This document shows positions 30,543 through 61,188 of a stretch of DNA of 64,000 nt, piece by piece. Position numbers and translations under genes: made by a program. The notes under the pieces were generated by a model. It had not been told where the DNA came from. It saw nothing but the letters and a program-made list of their open reading frames with translations, and did no database searches. Source of the DNA: Pseudidiomarina gelatinasegens (GTDB lineage: Bacteria; Pseudomonadota; Gammaproteobacteria; Enterobacterales; Alteromonadaceae); the NCBI RefSeq assembly GCF_004025325.1, contig NZ_RSFE01000002.1:1-64000 (forward strand), in the 5' to 3' direction. The first letter of the stretch is position 1; every line of letters starts with the position of its first letter.

Positions 30543-31078
30543 TGAACCGCGTAATGGTAATAAAAACAGCTTTTATTGCTGCCATAGTAGCTTTATTAGT
30601 TGGGTGTTCAGCGCAAATTGAAGATTACCAAGGTGAACAGCCCCAGTTAAAACTTGAAGAGTTTTTCAATGGCGACCTAGTTGCTTACGGCATGGTGCAA
30701 GACTATAGCGGTAAGGTTATTCAACGGTTTCATGCGGATTTAAAAGGCACTTGGAACGGCAATGAGGGTGTTTTAGACGAGCAGTTTTATTATGCCGATG
30801 GCAGCCAGCAAGAGCGTATCTGGTATATCACAAAAACCGGTGAAAACAGCTATGAAGGGCGAGCTAGCGATGTTGAAGGTGTCGCTGAAGGCACTACGGC
30901 AGGAAACGTATTGAACTGGAGCTACACACTGATCATTGAACGTGATGGTGAACCCTTTGCGGTTAATTTAGATGATTGGCTGTATCTGGTTGATTCTGAC
31001 AACATGATTAATCGTACTCAGATGTACAAATACGGCCTGCCAGTGGGGGAGATAACCCTTTATATTGGTAAGAAATAA
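30542..31078 (+). CDS. DUF3833 lipoprotein
   Basis: Encodes 178 residues. The signal ends in the lipobox VALLVGCSAQ, so it should be membrane-anchored. The body has LKLEEFFNGDLVAYGMVQDY, a DUF3833 hallmark, followed by KVIQRFHADLKGTWNG and FYYADGSQQERIWYITK, resembling a lipocalin-like beta barrel. It is the last gene of the photolyase/lipid operon and ends before a terminator. With the chalcone-isomerase-like protein it gives the operon an envelope arm. Confidence 0.85.
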   Translation: MNRVMVIKTAFIAAIVALLVGCSAQIEDYQGEQPQLKLEEFFNGDLVAYGMVQDYSGKVIQRFHADLKGTWNGNEGVLDEQFYYADGSQQERIWYITKTGENSYEGRASDVEGVAEGTTAGNVLNWSYTLIIERDGEPFAVNLDDWLYLVDSDNMINRTQMYKYGLPVGEITLYIGKK

Positions 31079-31106
31079 CGGGTAAGAAATAACGAACAAA
31101 AAGTAA

Positions 31107-31145
31107 TAAAAAAAGGGAAATAAGCGTGCTTATTTCCCTTTTTTG
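31107..31145. terminator. Terminator closing the photolyase/lipid operon
   Basis: AAAAAGGGAAATAAGC-GT-GCTTATTTCCCTTTTTT is a perfect long hairpin with T-run on both strands. It can also terminate the leftward Ala/Lys-rich gene that stops at 31171. Confidence 0.93.
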
Positions 31146-31170
31146 TAGGTGTTATGACTGGTTTTAAAGC

Positions 31171-31620
31171 TTAATCATAGCCGCGTGGTAAACGCGATAA
31201 GGTGCTATCTTGCTCTAAGCGCTGGCGCCACAATTCTTTTGCTGTAAGCCCACCATTTGCACTCTTGCTAACTTTTGCTTTTGCAGCTTTTGCAGCAGGC
31301 TTTTTAGCGGCCGCTTTTTTAGCTGGTGCTTTTTTAGCAGGTGCTTTCTTGGCCGGTTCTGCAGCTTTCTTGGCTTCTTTTTTGGCTGCAGTTTTTGCTG
31401 CGGGCTTAGCTGCTGCTTTGGTTGCCTTGGCAGCTGGTTTAGCTGCTTTGCCACCGGCTAATGTCTCGGCTTCTTCAGCAAGTTGAGCTAGGCGTACATT
31501 TTTGCCGCCATCAACGCTATACCAGCCGCCTTTCGCTTCAACTTTCGGTTTTTTGCCGTGAGCTTGCTGGTATGCTGCAGTAAAATCAGCAAGCACTTGG
31601 TCTTTATCAAGTTTGCTCAT
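31171..31620 (-). CDS. Ala/Lys/Pro-rich histone H1-like protein
   Basis: Encodes 149 residues. The N-terminal 50 residues look folded (DKDQVLADFTAAYQQAHGKK, WYSVDGGKNVRLAQLAEEAE). Residues about 55-115 are a low-complexity tail of AAKPAAK, KKAPAKK and AKKPAAK repeats, like bacterial H1 homologues. The C-terminus ends in GGLTAKELWRQRLEQDS. The tail is strongly basic and probably binds DNA or RNA. GC and base use in the repeat differ from neighbours only because of the residue bias. It is flanked by terminators, a single-gene unit. Confidence 0.75.
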   Translation of the reverse strand: MSKLDKDQVLADFTAAYQQAHGKKPKVEAKGGWYSVDGGKNVRLAQLAEEAETLAGGKAAKPAAKATKAAAKPAAKTAAKKEAKKAAEPAKKAPAKKAPAKKAAAKKPAAKAAKAKVSKSANGGLTAKELWRQRLEQDSTLSRLPRGYD

Positions 31621-43324: not shown

Positions 43325-43545
43325 CGTTTTCCCGTTACTTTGCAGCATGTAGTCATACTAGCAAGATTACCTTATGCACCTTTTAATGACAAAGATTAAC
43401 AACTTACACAATAACTATTCGACAACGTGGCACGTAAACCAGCAGCCCGCGTTAAATGGCCGCTATTTCGGGATCGGTGTCCCTTGCTCAGTTGCCAGCA
43501 GCAAGTTAGAGTTGAAGGCTATAGCTTTTCAACGTTGAGGCAACT

Positions 43546-44601
43546 ATGAAACACCTGAAACTCCCTACAACAGCACGCTCGCTTTTAGTATCTGCGGTTT
43601 TGGTATCTGGCGCGGCGTTACTTGCACCGAATGCACACGCTCAAGACGCGAACGATACCGCTAAGTTTTCAATTGCTATTCACGGTGGTGCAGGAACCAT
43701 CACGCGTGAGAGTATGACGCCAGAGCGCGAACGCGCCTATACGGCAAAGCTTACCGAAGCAATTAACGCAGGGCACGCGGTTCTTGCCAAGGGTGGTACC
43801 AGCATGGATGCGGTGGTGGTTGCCGTACAAATTATGGAAGACTCACCACTTTTTAACTCCGGTCGCGGTGCTGTGTATAACTGGGATGGGATTCATGAGT
43901 TAGATGCATCAATCATGAACGGCGCCACTCGCGAAGCTGGTGCTGTGGCCAGCGTGAAAACGGTGAAAAGCCCGATTGCTTTGGCACGTAAAATAATGGA
44001 AGAGTCAGTACACGTGATGCTTAGCGGCGAAGGCGCTGAAACCTTTGCGCAAGAGCAGGGCTTAGAGCTGGTTGACAACAGTTACTTTAATACCGAATGG
44101 CGTTACGAGTCGTTACAACGCATGAAGAAACAAGTTGGCAACCCCCAAGATAAGCAAGCTTGGGCAACGATGGATGATAACTTTAAATACGGCACTGTGG
44201 GTGCTGTTGCCCGAGATAAACATGGCAACTTGGCAGCTGCGACGTCAACGGGTGGTATGACCGGTAAGCGTTATGGTCGCGTTGGTGATTCGCCGATTAT
44301 TGGTGCGGGCACATGGGCTGACAATGCCAGCTGTGCGGTTTCTGCAACAGGGCACGGTGAATACTTTATTCGCTATCAAGTTGCCGCAGATATTTGTTCA
44401 CGCATGAAATACCAACAACTCGATGTGGTGACAGCTGGTGATACAGTGATTCATGACGTGTTGTTGCCAGCAGGTGGCACCGGCGGTGTTATTATTGTCG
44501 ATAAAGACGGTAATGTGCATATGCCATTTAATACTGAAGGTATGTACCGCGCTAAGCGCGTTGCAAATCAACCGGTTGAGGTTGCCATTTACAACGATTG
44601 A
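43546..44601 (+). CDS. Exported isoaspartyl peptidase / plant-type L-asparaginase
   Basis: Encodes 351 residues. A signal peptide (SLLVSAVLVSGAALLAPNA, cleaved near HAQDAN) precedes an Ntn-hydrolase of the IaaA family: IAIHGGAGTITRESM, GHAVLAKGGTSMDAVVVAV, NSGRGAVYNWDG and DASIMNG. The autocleavage nucleophile is predicted to be the threonine in FKYGTVGAVA, followed by AAATSTGGMTGKRYGRVGDS (20 residues). It would hydrolyse isoaspartyl dipeptides or asparagine. Cytosolic IaaA in E. coli is exported less obviously; here the leader is clear. It is a single gene before a small CBS-domain gene. Confidence 0.9.
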   Translation: MKHLKLPTTARSLLVSAVLVSGAALLAPNAHAQDANDTAKFSIAIHGGAGTITRESMTPERERAYTAKLTEAINAGHAVLAKGGTSMDAVVVAVQIMEDSPLFNSGRGAVYNWDGIHELDASIMNGATREAGAVASVKTVKSPIALARKIMEESVHVMLSGEGAETFAQEQGLELVDNSYFNTEWRYESLQRMKKQVGNPQDKQAWATMDDNFKYGTVGAVARDKHGNLAAATSTGGMTGKRYGRVGDSPIIGAGTWADNASCAVSATGHGEYFIRYQVAADICSRMKYQQLDVVTAGDTVIHDVLLPAGGTGGVIIVDKDGNVHMPFNTEGMYRAKRVANQPVEVAIYND

Positions 44602-54920: not shown

Positions 54921-57563
54921 ATGAGTGATCTCGCCAGAGAAGTCGTTCCGGTCAATATTGAAGATGAGTTAAAAAGTTCTTACCTCGATTATGCCATGAG
55001 TGTAATTGTAGGCCGTGCATTGCCGGACGTTCGTGATGGTCTCAAGCCAGTTCACCGTCGCGTTTTATTCGCGATGAACGAATTGCGCAATGACTTTAAC
55101 AAGCCGTATAAAAAGTCAGCGCGTATTGTCGGTGACGTAATTGGTAAGTATCACCCCCACGGTGATAGTGCTGTTTACGACACGATTGTACGGATGGCAC
55201 AACCGTTTTCGCTACGTTACATGTTGGTCGATGGCCAAGGTAACTTTGGTTCTGTAGACGGTGACTCGGCAGCAGCAATGCGTTATACCGAAATTCGTAT
55301 GGCTAAAATTGCCAGCGAATTACTCTCCGATCTCGACAAAGAAACAGTCGACTTTGTGCCAAACTATGACGGCACAGAACAAATTCCAGATGTATTGCCA
55401 ACCCGTGTTCCCAATCTATTAGTAAACGGCTCGTCCGGTATTGCGGTAGGTATGGCGACCAACATTCCGCCGCACAACTTAACTGAAGTTGTAAATGGCT
55501 GTTTGGCAATGATCGACAATCCGGATATTCAAATTGAAGAATTGATGGATTATATACCTGGCCCTGACTTCCCAACTGCGGCAAGTATTTCAGGTCGTGC
55601 AGGTATTATTGAAGCCTACAAAACTGGGCGTGGCCGCATTCATTTGCGTGCAACCGCCGAAGTTGAAACCGATAGCAATAATCGTGAAGCAATCATCGTT
55701 ACGGAAATTCCGTATCAGGTGAACAAAGCCCGATTGATAGAGAAAATTGCTGAGCTGGTTAAAGAAAAACGCTTAGAAGGTATCAGCGGTTTGCGTGATG
55801 AGTCTGATAAAGACGGCATGCGTATTGTTATCGAACTAAAACGTGGTGAAGTTGCTGAAGTTGTCCTGAATCACCTGTATGCCAATACCCAAATGCAAGT
55901 GGTATTCGGTATTAACATGGTTGCTTTGGATAAAAACCAGCCACGCCTGTTTAACCTGCGCGACATGCTTGAATGCTTCATTCTGCACCGTCGTGAAGTG
56001 GTTACCCGTCGCTCGGTTTATGAGTTGCGTAAAGCACGTGAGCGTGCCCACATCCTTGAAGGGTTAGCGATTGCGCTGGCTAACATTGATGAAATTATTG
56101 AATTGATTCGTCGTTCACAAACTGCTGCTGATGCAAAAGCTGGATTAAGCAGCCGTGCGTGGAATCTTGGCGATGTAGCAGCAATGCTTGAACGCGCAGG
56201 TGTTGACGCGGCGCGCCCTGACCACCTCAGTGTGGAATTCGGTATTCGCGATGGCCAATATTACTTAACTGAAGAACAAGCCCAAGCGATTTTGGACTTG
56301 CGCTTACACAAGTTAACAGGCCTTGAGCACGAGAAAATTCTTGAAGAATACAAGTCGTTGCTGCAACAGATTGAAGAGTTGCTGTACATCTTGAATAACT
56401 CAGAACGTTTGATGGAAGTTATCCGTGAAGAGTTAGAGAAGATTAAAGCTGAATATGGTGATGCGCGCCGCACAGAAATCACGGCTGCTGCCCATGATAT
56501 CAGCATGGAAGACCTGATTAATGAAGAAGACGTGGTGGTGACCTTGTCACATCACGGTTATGTGAAGTATCAACCATTAACTGAGTATGAAGCGCAACGT
56601 CGCGGTGGTAAAGGCAAGTCCGCCACGAAGATGAAAGACGAAGACTTCATTGAACGCTTATGGGTTGCCAATACACATGACACGATTCTGTGTTTCTCAA
56701 CGCGGGGTCGCATTTACTGGATGAAGGTTTATCAATTACCGCTGGCAACGCGCACTGCGCGCGGCCGTCCAATTGTAAACTTGTTGCCGCTAGAAGCTGA
56801 TGAGCGTATTACCGCAATTCTGCCAACGCGTGATTATCCAGACGACAAATACATTGTTATGGCCACCCGCAAGGGTACGGTTAAGAAGACACCAATGGAA
56901 GCCTATTCGCGCCCGCGCAGTGGCGGTATTATTGCCCTGAACTTGAATGATGGGGATGAACTGATTGGTGTTGACGTGACGACTGCCGGTGATGAGATCA
57001 TGTTGTTCTCAGACGGCGGCAAAGTGGTGCGCTTTAGTGAAGATCAAGTGCGCTCAATGGGTCGTACCGCAACCGGTGTACGCGGTATTCGCCTTGCTGA
57101 AGGGCAAAGCGTGGTATCACTCATCGTGCCGCGAACCATTGAAGACGAAGTACCAAGCATTCTTACAGTAACTGAAAACGGGTTTGGTAAACGTACGCCG
57201 ATTACCGATTATCCGGCGAAGAGCCGCGCCACTAAAGGTGTCGTTTCAATCAAAGTAAGTGAACGAAATGGTCAGGTTGTTGGTGCCATGGAAGTGGTTG
57301 AAGCCAACCAGATTATGCTTATCAGCAACAAAGGCACGCTGGTACGGACGCGCGTTCTTGAAGTGTCGGTAGTAGGGCGTAACACCCAGGGTGTTCGCTT
57401 AATTCGTACCGGTGCAGATGAACAAGTTGTCGGCATGCAGCGTATTGATGAAGTTGATGAAGATGATGAAACCGATGCGTTGCTGAACGAGCCTGTAGAA
57501 GGTGAAGAGAGCAGCGAGCCATTAGACGATGATGCGGACGATGACGCAGTAACTGAGGAATAA
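54921..57563 (+). CDS. gyrA: DNA gyrase subunit A
   Basis: Encodes 880 residues from ATG 54921 ([20 protein letters not shown], 20 residues), with AGGGA upstream. GyrA cuts and rejoins DNA for ATP-driven negative supercoiling with GyrB. The catalytic tyrosine is Y122 (AAAMRYTEI). The quinolone-resistance region [20 protein letters not shown] (20 residues) has S83 and D87, the susceptible residues. The C-terminal beta pinwheel starts around 535 and includes the GyrA box [10 protein letters not shown]. The acidic tail [12 protein letters not shown] is usual. A longer frame to 54864 adds residues without homology. Confidence 0.98.
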
Positions 57564-57567
57564 TTGC

Positions 57568-58650
57568 ATGGGTGCCCCGTTTAACTTTTCTGCGGGGCCG
57601 GCAATGCTGCCGGCAGAAGTTATGAAACAAGCCCAAGAGGAATTCCTTAACTGGAACGACTTGGGCATTTCAGTACTCGAAATTAGTCATCGTGATCCAG
57701 CATTTATTCGGCTTGCCGAGCAAGCCGAGCAGGATTTGCGTGACTTAATGGATATTCCCGATAATTACCGCGTGTTATTTATGCATGGTGGCGGTCGCGG
57801 ACAATTCAGTGCTGTGCCACAGAATATTGCCGGGCCGAACTCCACGGTAGATTATTTGAATTGTGGCATTTGGTCTGAGTTTGCCATTCGTGAAGCCAAA
57901 AAGTATGTGCAGCATGTCAACGTAGTGGGTGCTGCAGTTCAAACGGATCAGGGCAAAGCGATTGCGTCGGCCGATGCATGGCAACTTTCAGAAAACGCCG
58001 CCTATTTTCATTATTGTCCGAACGAGACAGTTGATGGCATTGCGGTGCATGAAATACCTGATGTGGCAGCACCGCTGGTTGCCGATATGTCTTCTAATAT
58101 TCTCTCTGAACCGCTTGATGTCAGCCGCTTTGGTGTGATTTATGCGGGCGCACAAAAAAATATCGGGCCGTCGGGCTTTGCTATTGCGATTGTGCGTGAT
58201 GACTTGCTCGGCCATCCGCAGGGCAATACCTCAACCATCATGGATTATACAGTGCAAGCCAAGGAACGTTCGATGTACAACACGCCGAACACCTTCGCGT
58301 GGTACTTGTCGGCACTTGTATTTCAATGGCTCAAGCGCCAAGGTGGCATTGCTGCCATGGGGCAGATGAATCATGCAAAAGCAGCGAAACTGTATGACTT
58401 TATTGACAGTTCTGACTTCTATAGTAATCCAGTTAACCCTAACTATCGTTCCATAATGAACGTACCATTCTTGCTAGCGGACGAACGCCTTGACGGTGAA
58501 TTCTTGCAGCAAGCCCAACACGCTGGGTTGTTAGGATTAAAAGGCCATCGGTTTGTCGGCGGTATGCGCGCAAGTATTTATAATGCGATGCCGATGGCTG
58601 GCGTTGATGCGCTGGTTGAATTCATGCGCGAATTTGAGCGTAAGGCCTAA
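57568..58650 (+). CDS. serC: Phosphoserine aminotransferase
   Basis: Encodes 360 residues (E. coli 362). It transaminates 3-phosphohydroxypyruvate in serine synthesis and a related step in vitamin B6 synthesis. Marks are [49 protein letters not shown] and the PLP lysine in [18 protein letters not shown] precedes the ATG, 4 bases after the gyrA stop, so it may share the gyrA transcript. The order gyrA-serC then hisC-aroA is the typical gammaproteobacterial layout. No pheA or tyrA lies between. Confidence 0.97.
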
Positions 58651-58784
58651 AAACATAAAAGCGTTATTCGGTTTTCGTCCGTTCACTTTGTTCACTGTTC
58701 GTCCGTGCTTCGCACTGTTCGAATAGCGCAGCGGACGAAGAACGAAGTGGACGAACAACGAAGTAAACGAACAACGAGAGCTTT
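58651..58784. repeat. 16-bp tandem repeat with inverted partner between serC and hisC
   Basis: Nearly three copies of a 16-bp unit lie at 58735-58780: ACGAAGAACGAAGTGG, ACGAACAACGAAGTAA and ACGAACAACGAGAG. The left half (58677-58722) contains their imperfect reverse complement (TTCGTCC, GTTCACTTTGTTCACTG, TTCGTCCGTGCTTCG). A transcript would fold into a long irregular hairpin. The ribosome-binding GAGAG of hisC is the end of the third repeat, so the fold might affect hisC translation. The DNA is non-coding in all frames I checked. It could also be a degenerate mobile intergenic repeat; no other copy was noticed in this window. Confidence 0.75.
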
Positions 58785-59891
58785 ATGACTGATTTTAATG
58801 CAAAAGAATTGGCGAACCTTGGGGTTCGTACGTTAAGCCCCTATCAAGCGGGAAAGCCTATCGAAGAGGTTGAGCGCGAACTTGGGATTAAAAATATTAT
58901 TAAGTTGGCCTCTAATGAGAATCCGCTGGGTTTGAGCGAGAAGGTGAAGCAGGCATTACAAGATGCTTTGCAGGGGTTAGCCCGTTACCCCGATGCCAAT
59001 GGTTTTTATTTAAAAACTAAACTGGCCGAAAAGTTTGGCGTGAATACCAATCAAATCACTTTAGGTAATGGTTCGAATGACGTGCTGGAGTTATTGGCGC
59101 GTACGTTTGTTGATGCCAGTCACGAAGTGATCTTCGCGCAACACGCCTTTGTCGTTTATCCCCTAGTTACCCAAGCCATTGGCGCCAAAGGCGTTGCAGT
59201 GCCGGCGAAAGACTATGGCCATGACTTGCCTGCGATGTTGAAGGCGATTACGCCGAACACGCGGATGATTTTTATTGCCAACCCAAACAACCCAACCGGT
59301 ACTTTTCTAACGAAAGAAGAACTGGCCGAGTTTATCGCAAAAGTACCTTCCAATGTATTGGTAGTGCTGGACGAAGCGTATTATGAATACGTTGAAGCAG
59401 CCGAACGCGCCCCATCCGTTGAATGGGTAGCAAAGTATCCGAATTTAATCGTCAGCCGCACTTTTTCCAAAGCATATGGGTTAGCGGGGCTGCGGGCAGG
59501 GTACGCAATCTCGCATCCTGAAGTGGCTGATTTAATGAACCGTATTCGTCAGCCGTTCAATATGAATAGCTTAAGTCTGCGCGCTGCTGAAGTGGTGCTC
59601 GATGACCAAGATTATCTTGATGAATCAATTCGCGTTAACCAAGAAGGCATGAAGCAGTTGGTGGCGTTTTGCGAGCAGAAGGGTTTAAATTATATTCCTT
59701 CTCATGGCAACTTCTTGACCATTGAAGTGGGTGATGCAGCGGCAGACATTTATCAAAAGCTGTTGCATGCTGGCGTTATTGTGCGCCCAGTTGCCGGTTA
59801 TCAGTTGCCGCGCCATTTGCGCGTAAGCATTGGTCTGCCTGCAGAAAATCAGGCATTTATTGATGCCATGACGACCCTATTGCATGGCTGA
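58785..59891 (+). CDS. hisC: Histidinol-phosphate / aromatic aminotransferase
   Basis: Encodes 368 residues. PLP-fold type I aminotransferase with KLASNENPLGLSEKVKQAL, RYPDANGFYLKTKLAEKFGV (20 residues), FIANPNNPTGT, VLDEAYYEYVEAA and the PLP lysine in SRTFSKAYGLAGLRAGYA. HisC acts in histidine synthesis, but this copy is next to aroA and serC, where the HisC2 subgroup is often an aromatic amino-acid aminotransferase. No other his genes are in the window. Its stop overlaps the aroA start by 8 bases. Confidence 0.9.
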   Translation: MTDFNAKELANLGVRTLSPYQAGKPIEEVERELGIKNIIKLASNENPLGLSEKVKQALQDALQGLARYPDANGFYLKTKLAEKFGVNTNQITLGNGSNDVLELLARTFVDASHEVIFAQHAFVVYPLVTQAIGAKGVAVPAKDYGHDLPAMLKAITPNTRMIFIANPNNPTGTFLTKEELAEFIAKVPSNVLVVLDEAYYEYVEAAERAPSVEWVAKYPNLIVSRTFSKAYGLAGLRAGYAISHPEVADLMNRIRQPFNMNSLSLRAAEVVLDDQDYLDESIRVNQEGMKQLVAFCEQKGLNYIPSHGNFLTIEVGDAAADIYQKLLHAGVIVRPVAGYQLPRHLRVSIGLPAENQAFIDAMTTLLHG

Positions 59892-61188
59892 TACCGGTTC
59901 AATTACCCTCAAAAAGCTGCGGCAATGTCATGGTAACGTGACCTTGCCGGGTTCCAAAAGTATTGCGAACCGCGCATTGCTCATGGCTGCGTTATGCGGC
60001 GCAGGGCAAAGTACGGTGCTTACCAACGTATTACGAAGCGATGATACCCAGCGCATGTTGGAAGCATTGGGAGACTTGGGGGTGACTGTTACCATTGCCG
60101 AGCATGATCCAACCCATATCACCGTTTCTGGCTGCGAGGGGAAATGGCCACAGCATCCTGCAGCGTTAGATTTGGGTAATGCGGGTACCGCTATGCGGCC
60201 GCTGCTGGCCGTACTGAGTGCAACCTTACAAGGCAATCGTTGCATACTAACCGGTGATGCGCGCATGCAAGAACGCCCCATTGCAGCGTTGATTGAATCC
60301 TTGCGCGCTGGCGGTGCTCACATTGATTGTCTGCAGCAGGAAGGTTACCCGCCGCTTGAGATTTCCGGTGGCTTAACCAGTGGCATGATTGAAATTGATG
60401 GCACCGAGTCCAGCCAGTATATTTCAGCCCTATTAATGGCGTTGCCGTTACTCGAAACAGACAGCGTACTCAAGCTAACGGGAACCGTGGTTTCATGGCC
60501 ATATATTGAGCTAACGCTGTCAATGCTCGAACGCTTTGGCATTGTTGTGCACCAAATCTGCCGCCAAGAATTTATGATTCCAGGCCAGCAGGTTTACCAA
60601 AGCCCTGGTGTTTACTGGGTGGAAGGCGATGCCAGCGCAGCATCCTACTGGCTCGCGGCGGGTGCTCTTGGCGGCGGACCACTGACGGTTCATGGCGTGG
60701 GGCGTCATAGCATTCAAGGCGATGTGAAATTTGCTGATTATCTGGCACAAATGGGCGCGCAAGTGACCATTGAAGAACATTCAATTACGGTTAAAAAGGG
60801 TGTTTTACGTGCGCTTGATGCCGACCTCAATGCAATTCCAGATGCCGCGATGACCTTTGCCACGCTTGCATTGTTTGCGCAGGGGACTACTCACATTCGT
60901 AATATTGCCAATTGGCGCATAAAAGAAACCGACCGCTTGCAAGCGATGGCAGCAGAACTGCGTAAGGTAGGCGCGCATGTTGTCGAAACCGAAGAGGCAA
61001 TTTCAATTACGCCACCAGCACATTTGCAACATGGAATTATCGATACCTACAACGATCATAGAATGGCTATGAGTTTTGCATTGTTAGGTTTTAGCGAGGT
61101 TGGAGTGACCATTTTAGACCCCAATTGTTGCCGGAAAACCTACCCAAATTTCTTCACGGAATTTTGCCAGATCACGCAAAGTTCATGA
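59884..61188 (+). CDS. aroA: 3-Phosphoshikimate 1-carboxyvinyltransferase (EPSP synthase)
   Basis: Encodes 434 residues. The enzyme joins phosphoenolpyruvate to shikimate 3-phosphate in the chorismate pathway. Characteristic blocks are VTLPGSKSIANRALLMAALC (20 residues), the phosphoenolpyruvate loop LGNAGTAMRPL, RMQERPIAALIESLRAGGA, GTESSQYISALLMALP and the C-terminal YNDHRMAMSFALLGF. The GNAGTAMRPL loop is of the class I, glyphosate-sensitive type. It is not fused to tyrA as it is in Pseudomonas. cmk follows. Confidence 0.97.
   Translation: MADTGSITLKKLRQCHGNVTLPGSKSIANRALLMAALCGAGQSTVLTNVLRSDDTQRMLEALGDLGVTVTIAEHDPTHITVSGCEGKWPQHPAALDLGNAGTAMRPLLAVLSATLQGNRCILTGDARMQERPIAALIESLRAGGAHIDCLQQEGYPPLEISGGLTSGMIEIDGTESSQYISALLMALPLLETDSVLKLTGTVVSWPYIELTLSMLERFGIVVHQICRQEFMIPGQQVYQSPGVYWVEGDASAASYWLAAGALGGGPLTVHGVGRHSIQGDVKFADYLAQMGAQVTIEEHSITVKKGVLRALDADLNAIPDAAMTFATLALFAQGTTHIRNIANWRIKETDRLQAMAAELRKVGAHVVETEEAISITPPAHLQHGIIDTYNDHRMAMSFALLGFSEVGVTILDPNCCRKTYPNFFTEFCQITQSS

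Follow-up and report, generated by a model that had tools for sequence, protein, structure and literature searches.

What occupies the space between serC and hisC in Pseudidiomarina gelatinasegens, and does it act on the gene that follows? Intergenic palindromes are usually described one family at a time. The window, a stretch of 64,000 nucleotides, contains just before hisC a 16-bp repeat, for which the original prediction offered three meanings: a hairpin controlling translation, a tract of variable copy number, or a member of a dispersed repeat family. Our results favour the third. With moderate confidence, we consider the element a genus-restricted palindrome of the mobile type, whose place in certain gaps is taken by other palindromes in close relatives, and which would form a hairpin in the message. 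The novel point is this exchange of occupants, at the hisC gap and at others like it.

Structure of the serC-hisC spacer

The spacer comprises everything from the serC stop codon (TAA, 58648-58650) to the hisC ATG, that is, positions 58651-58784 of the window. Its features and flanking genes are as follows.

57568-58650, plus strand: serC, the upstream gene (open reading frame of 360 aa; NCBIfam serC above cut-off)
58657-58780, plus strand: palindromic element of family A, from AAAAGCG to CAACGAGAG (sequence, BLAST and covariance model R1; limits approximate, set by reading of family A copies)
58681-58704, plus strand: left arm of the inverted repeat (repeat search)
58733-58777, plus strand: tandem repeat, 16-bp unit in 2.8 copies, which overlaps the right arm (TRF)
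58749-58772, plus strand: right arm of the inverted repeat (repeat search)
58776-58780, plus strand: GAGAG at the element's end, candidate ribosome-binding sequence of hisC (sequence)
58785-59891, plus strand: hisC, the downstream gene (open reading frame of 368 aa; NCBIfam hisC above cut-off)

The tandem and mirrored repeat before hisC is real. TRF reported a period of 16 with 2.8 copies and 89% matches, and the score of 69 was the highest of the 23 rows in the window. The inverted arms, 24 nt long and 75% complementary, make an imperfect palindrome with the tandem repeat in its right half. The last 16-bp unit continues into GAGAG, a plausible but weak candidate for the ribosome-binding sequence. 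The predicted RNA fold of positions 58645-58800 reached -49.7 kcal/mol, compared with -35.35 ± 3.54 for shuffled sequences (z = -4.05), and none of the 200 shuffles folded as well. Special conservation of the spacer was considered and dropped: its identity (86% between the window and G011, 82% between the window and G012) falls inside the range of 46-91% found for the other spacers 60 bp or longer. The upstream gene serC is present in six of six close relatives.

Elsewhere in the window, a perfect 14-bp tandem repeat of 2.0 copies (31067-31094) runs across the end of one open reading frame, and a 15-bp repeat of 3.1 copies (31301-31347) lies inside a small minus-strand one. At the convergent junction 31078-31171, a segment of ~1.9 kb is present in G011, G018 and G024 and absent in the host, G020 and G023 (G012 was left out of this scoring).

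Dispersal and range of family A

A genome search with the short repeat, as originally suggested, misses the family: the 14-base core occurs once in the host genome, and the family becomes visible through the whole element only. A BLAST search of the host genome with the whole element (E up to 10) gave 67 matches, a total that counts the element's own locus, weak hits and, for single copies, hits on both strands. R1, a covariance model built from 16 host copies, returned 77 rows at 43 places, or at least 42 after merging one pair that consists of overlapping contig ends with 109 identical bases. Across the genus, family A was found in 20 of 26 genomes, with a single match in one of these. It was not found in any of the 37 genomes sampled from the other genera of this bacterial family (the wider search covered 39 genomes, that is, these 37, the host and one A-free congener). 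The proposal of a dispersed family is thus borne out by copies across both the host genome and the genus. The element had no match in the plasmid collection and hence no plasmid relative there, and a known RNA family was set aside, since Rfam 15 gave no match within window positions 57000-61000 at E up to 1.

As read by eye, family A copies begin around AAAAGCGTTATTCG and finish around CGAATAACGCTTTT, and ends of the form AAAAGCG / CGCTTTT, resembling a terminator base with its T-run, are common among them. Judged by its sequence, family A is a dispersed, non-coding palindrome of ~100-145 bp, of the mobile type and restricted to Pseudidiomarina; its coding context was checked at six host junctions and in the relatives' stretches. 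As a dispersed, non-coding, intergenic palindrome it falls within the 100-160 bp of ERIC/NEMIS-type MITEs. The suggestion of a copy-number-variable tract stood in part. The number of 16-bp units differs among three species, as read from the alignment with one genome per species, and a fourfold tandem does occur in G020, but it consists of a different palindrome.

Two further observations concern the host assembly. On contig C21 (L157:1863-2480), an A, a partial A and a short A palindrome lie before and between three tRNA-Glu genes, and the five relatives scanned at this site have two or three tRNA-Glu genes. The start of contig C2 (L015) and the end of contig C25 (L012) carry the same A copy and flank, and these contigs probably overlap.

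Different palindromes in the same gap

The serC-hisC junction could be read in 24 of the 26 genus genomes (no hisC locus was obtained for G008 and G019). In 15 of these the spacer is 8-45 nt long with no element seen, and in nine it is 82-401 nt long and filled with repeats. Seven of these nine are the close relatives, window genome included. Family A occupies the gap in the window genome, G011 and G012, and a short A-like palindrome in G023. A second family, B (consensus CGATATTAGCTATTAG...CTAATAGCTAATATCG), occupies it in G018, G020 and G024, with four tandem copies in G020; the G024 spacer was read from L036, because hisC is cut by N in the sequence used for our 32-junction table. The G015 spacer reads as a chimaera, half B and half A-like, and G009 holds another repeat, different from A and B.

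The flanks of these spacers can be almost the same. G012, with A, and G018, with B, have two differences in the last 120 bp of serC and none in the first 120 bp of hisC. In a tree of 13 genes near hisC these two species group together (96.2% identity), G020 is 92% identical to both, and the other four species are ~78% identical to these three. Judging from these comparisons, different palindromes can stand in for one another in the hisC gap of close relatives, and the gap behaves like a socket with a changing plug. In the portions surveyed of the literature (PMC2267715, PMC3733652, PMC2229807, PMC2817692, PMC4125073), there is no report of families A and B, nor of orthologous gaps that alternate between palindrome families.

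The claim that A and B are wholly unrelated was dropped, because each covariance model detects the other family weakly. R1 scored 16.9-21.6 bits on B loci and ~70-150 bits on its own members, while the B model, R2, scored up to 26.5 bits on A loci and 88-122 bits on its own (own-member scores are for the best matches listed). This weak mutual detection may reflect shared ends or a distant common origin. By sequence, A and B are different families, at most distantly similar.

Exchange at other junctions

Exchange of occupants recurs at many gaps, namely at five further host junctions and along ~200 kb of three relatives. At rodZ-ispG, ndk-rlmN, hscA-fdx, upstream of hscA and downstream of uvrB, the gaps alternate between A, short A, B and REP (RodZ scored below the NCBIfam cut-off and the other named genes above it; G020 was left out at hscA-fdx and upstream of hscA, and G024 at hscA-fdx). 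Within window positions 20.5-60 kb, only two of 32 junctions hold any of these families, after removal by hand of five open reading frames that were spurious or at the edge. These are the hisC gap and 43348-43546, which holds A or short A in six of seven species and none in the host. Filled gaps are therefore rare, yet shared.

In orthologous stretches of ~200 kb from G018, G012 and G020, 141 junctions were comparable: 110 lack these families in all three species, 31 are filled in at least one, and two are identical in all three (30 and two, respectively, under a stricter motif rule). Under the strict rule, 13 of 21, 13 of 22 and 10 of 27 sites filled in both members of a species pair have no family in common. 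If junctions are treated as independent, only 2.0, 2.07 and 1.05 such sites are expected by chance (p ~1e-12 each), a 6-10-fold excess. Many of these pairs are B versus REP, and others A versus B. The family labels derive from hand-made motif counts that miss variant REPs, and REP-like hairpins at G018 sites 89155 and 181118 and at G012 site 180595 were scored as empty.

Gene orientation is not special, since genes are codirectional at 25 of 31 filled and 88 of 110 empty junctions. Across the 200-kb stretches, the three species are about equally distant (~91-93%), so the older occupant cannot be read from the tree. The close relationship (96%) of G012 and G018 near hisC is not general either, which makes the direction of each swap uncertain.

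Old alleles, fresh insertions, or exchange

How would different palindromes come to occupy one gap? In the reading we favour, an incoming palindrome would land in or beside the resident one, after which the resident, or half of it, would be lost, and the new alleles would spread by ordinary recombination between related strains. Chimaeric and nested spacers look like intermediates of such insertion followed by loss: as read, G012 site 92389 holds a REP pair and the right half of an A, ndk-rlmN of G012 and G020 holds a REP inside a short A, and host locus L012 has a B-like left arm beside a full A. Inspection by eye of the copies and swapped sites, whose flanks are palindromic, established neither a target duplication nor a clean empty site for A or B, and no transposase was found for either family. 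Swapping by template switching at shared ends was rejected as a mechanism. The sequence just outside the palindrome was compared across A/B swaps, and 22 of 600 permutations did as well on the left and 134 of 600 on the right, a marginal result confined to the left side.

A possible alternative, which we rate as less probable, is an old allelic polymorphism, in which ancient A and B forms of the spacer are shuffled purely by homologous recombination in the flanking genes and ectopic insertion has ended. Copies at the same locus do match across species, in comparisons that, like the REP densities below, cover part of the relatives' sequence. The hisC A copies of the window and G011 are each other's closest match (91.5%, 184-186 bits, as against at most 149 for copies at other loci), and the G012 copy is closest to that of the window (91.7%, 153 bits; other loci 138). 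For the hisC B copies, the best matches are among the three species themselves (G018, G020 and G024; 128-159 bits, 82-87%), with other loci at no more than 85 bits once G020's own tandem copies are set aside. At rodZ-ispG, three A copies match at 87-92% (170-201 bits), clearly above all others (94 bits or less). These cross-species best matches at hisC fit old alleles with recombination. The flanks are compatible as well: 150-bp flanking identity at differing sites (means of 91-94%) is like that at empty junctions (90-93%), as expected with close-relative donors. However, the hisC A copies of G011 and G012 (88.8%, 136 bits) are not nearer to each other than to paralogs: several elements from elsewhere score higher, up to 149 bits. 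Moreover, at rodZ-ispG the B copies of G020 and G024 resemble elements from other loci more than they resemble one another, which suggests that ectopic copying occurs, and the chimaeric and nested spacers require insertion. Allele descent across species and copying from other loci thus both seem to take place.

Rather unlikely, in our judgement, is independent insertion, in which selfish palindromes repeatedly hit a few gaps where they are tolerated and harmless, and older copies decay. The filled sets are indeed nearly nested, as if usable gaps were limited: G018 and G012 share 21 of 22 and 28 filled sites, G018 and G020 share 22 of 22 and 31, and G012 and G020 share 28 of 28 and 31. Yet tolerance looks wider than the occupied set. 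For each species pair there are 31 junctions where both spacers measure 40 bp or more and neither holds any of the families, and gaps that in G018 are 3 and 22 bp long contain REPs in G012 and G020.

More speculatively, and somewhat doubtfully, the exchange we favour could be taken further: gaps between co-oriented genes might be sockets that do, or must, hold a large hairpin, with a shared machinery replacing the resident by a palindrome of another family and leaving the flanking genes untouched.

The distribution of the two families bears on such shared factors. Of the 26 genomes, 19 carry both A and B, six carry neither and one carries A alone (Fisher p = 3e-5, uncorrected for kinship). The absences fall at four places on a tree of the serC and hisC proteins (24 of 26 genomes, no support values). 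This co-occurrence suggests a common factor or a common distant origin. A possible permissive background is the lack of SbcD, half of SbcCD, which in the excerpt consulted is described as a nuclease that cuts palindrome hairpins in E. coli (PMC4125073). SbcD was detected in only two of the 26 genus genomes (G015 and G002) and not in the host genome, which is 99.98% complete, while 13 of 14 control genomes gave a match, eight of them over the cut-off. As a simple switch it was rejected: G015 and G002 carry both families, and SbcD cannot explain the A/B distribution, because species without A and B lack it too. Its near-general absence (24 of 26) may be what permits palindrome exchange.

Possible effect on hisC and the message

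The element is probably transcribed as a hairpin between the serC and hisC cistrons, because both genes are codirectional and the element fills the gap. If it acts at all, it would affect how the serC-hisC message is processed or how stable it is, rather than switching hisC translation. Like the swap mechanism, this function is something we infer from sequence comparison.

An attenuator or terminator that separates hisC from serC transcription is improbable. The AAAAGCG / CGCTTTT ends of many A copies do close with a T-run, but the window copy ends in GAGAGCTTTATG with a short T-run only, and hisC begins so soon after it that a promoter would not fit in between.

Least probable of all is the hairpin controlling hisC translation, perhaps opened by ribosomes ending at serC, since for five of the six species the comparison with shuffled spacers shows no significant excess closure of the hisC start. 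The strong fold of the spacer is in its favour, as is the pairing, in the 156-nt fold, of the start codon with CATAAA at the stem base; this pairing is lost in a longer fold. Opening the start region takes 7.9 kcal/mol, compared with 7.0 ± 2.1 for shuffled spacers, and a ribosome parked on the serC stop codon shifts the opening energy by only 0.4. Among 100 shuffles, the number at least as closed at the start was 25 for the window, 74 for G011, 29 for G012, 11 for G023 and 33 for G018; the sole exception was G020, with its fourfold B (3 of 100).

Orthologous gaps with near-identical flanks and different palindromes make it possible to ask whether what selection maintains is a hairpin as such and not a particular sequence. 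Before a single biosynthetic gene there is a natural series of A, short A, B, four B copies and none. The same system could show by what route one large palindrome takes the place of another, and whether genomes become receptive to palindromes once SbcCD is lost.

Comparison with known palindromic elements

REP and BIME elements are likewise intergenic palindromes, located mostly between unidirectional or convergent genes according to the part of the source consulted (PMC3733652). GTAG-REPs occupy some of the same gaps in the relatives, as a set separate from A: the GTAG (or CGTC) tetranucleotide beside a short hairpin is absent from family A. A search for Y1_Tnp found none in the host genome (G000, 99.98% complete) and none in G009, G023, G005 and G024, all of which bear A, while 19 of 26 genus genomes have it. 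Family A is therefore not a REP, because its host has no Y1/RAYT gene. The distribution of Y1_Tnp also differs from that of families A and B: the transposase is present in five of seven genomes without B and absent in five of 19 with both. None of ten RAYT regions of relatives matches A or B. For the four whose repeat structure was listed, GTAG-REPs surround the gene in G011 and in one G012 region, and other inverted repeats in the second G012 region and in G018. A REP/RAYT origin of A was accordingly rejected, given the missing GTAG head, the host without Y1_Tnp and the RAYT regions without A or B.

GTAG-REP motifs per 100 kb number ~31-43 in G012, G020 and G011, 6-7.5 in G023 and G024, 2 in G018 and 0 in the host, values roughly doubled because a palindromic motif is counted on both strands. 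RAYTs lie in REP surroundings in G012 and G011, and the G020 RAYT has the same length as that of G012 (205 aa). In codirectional junctions of G012, G018 and G020, 35 REPs start no more than 40 nt past the end of a gene, and for 29 of them GTAG provides the TAG stop codon; the excerpt of PMC3733652 likewise states that GTAG-REPs often supply the stop codon.

Family A is more similar in kind to ERIC (IRU), described in parts of two sources as an imperfect palindrome of ~127 bp that is intergenic, forms one long stem-loop and is transcribed with its neighbours, with a mode of movement that is not settled (PMC2267715, PMC2229807). On the sequence side, the comparison with ERIC consists of the Rfam search, which gave no match. 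ERIC has TA termini and a target duplication, neither of which is established for family A, and the surveyed portions of the literature hold no report that one orthologous gap alternates between palindrome families. The Correia/NEMIS elements of Neisseria, likened to A by description, are palindromic miniature elements of ~107-155 bp between genes (PMC2229807, in part). They have 24-bp terminal repeats and a target duplication, again not established for A, and their hairpins are proposed in the same excerpt to be RNase III substrates. If family A has an effect, then by analogy with the proposals for ERIC and NEMIS (PMC2229807, PMC2267715) it more probably works on the intercistronic message.
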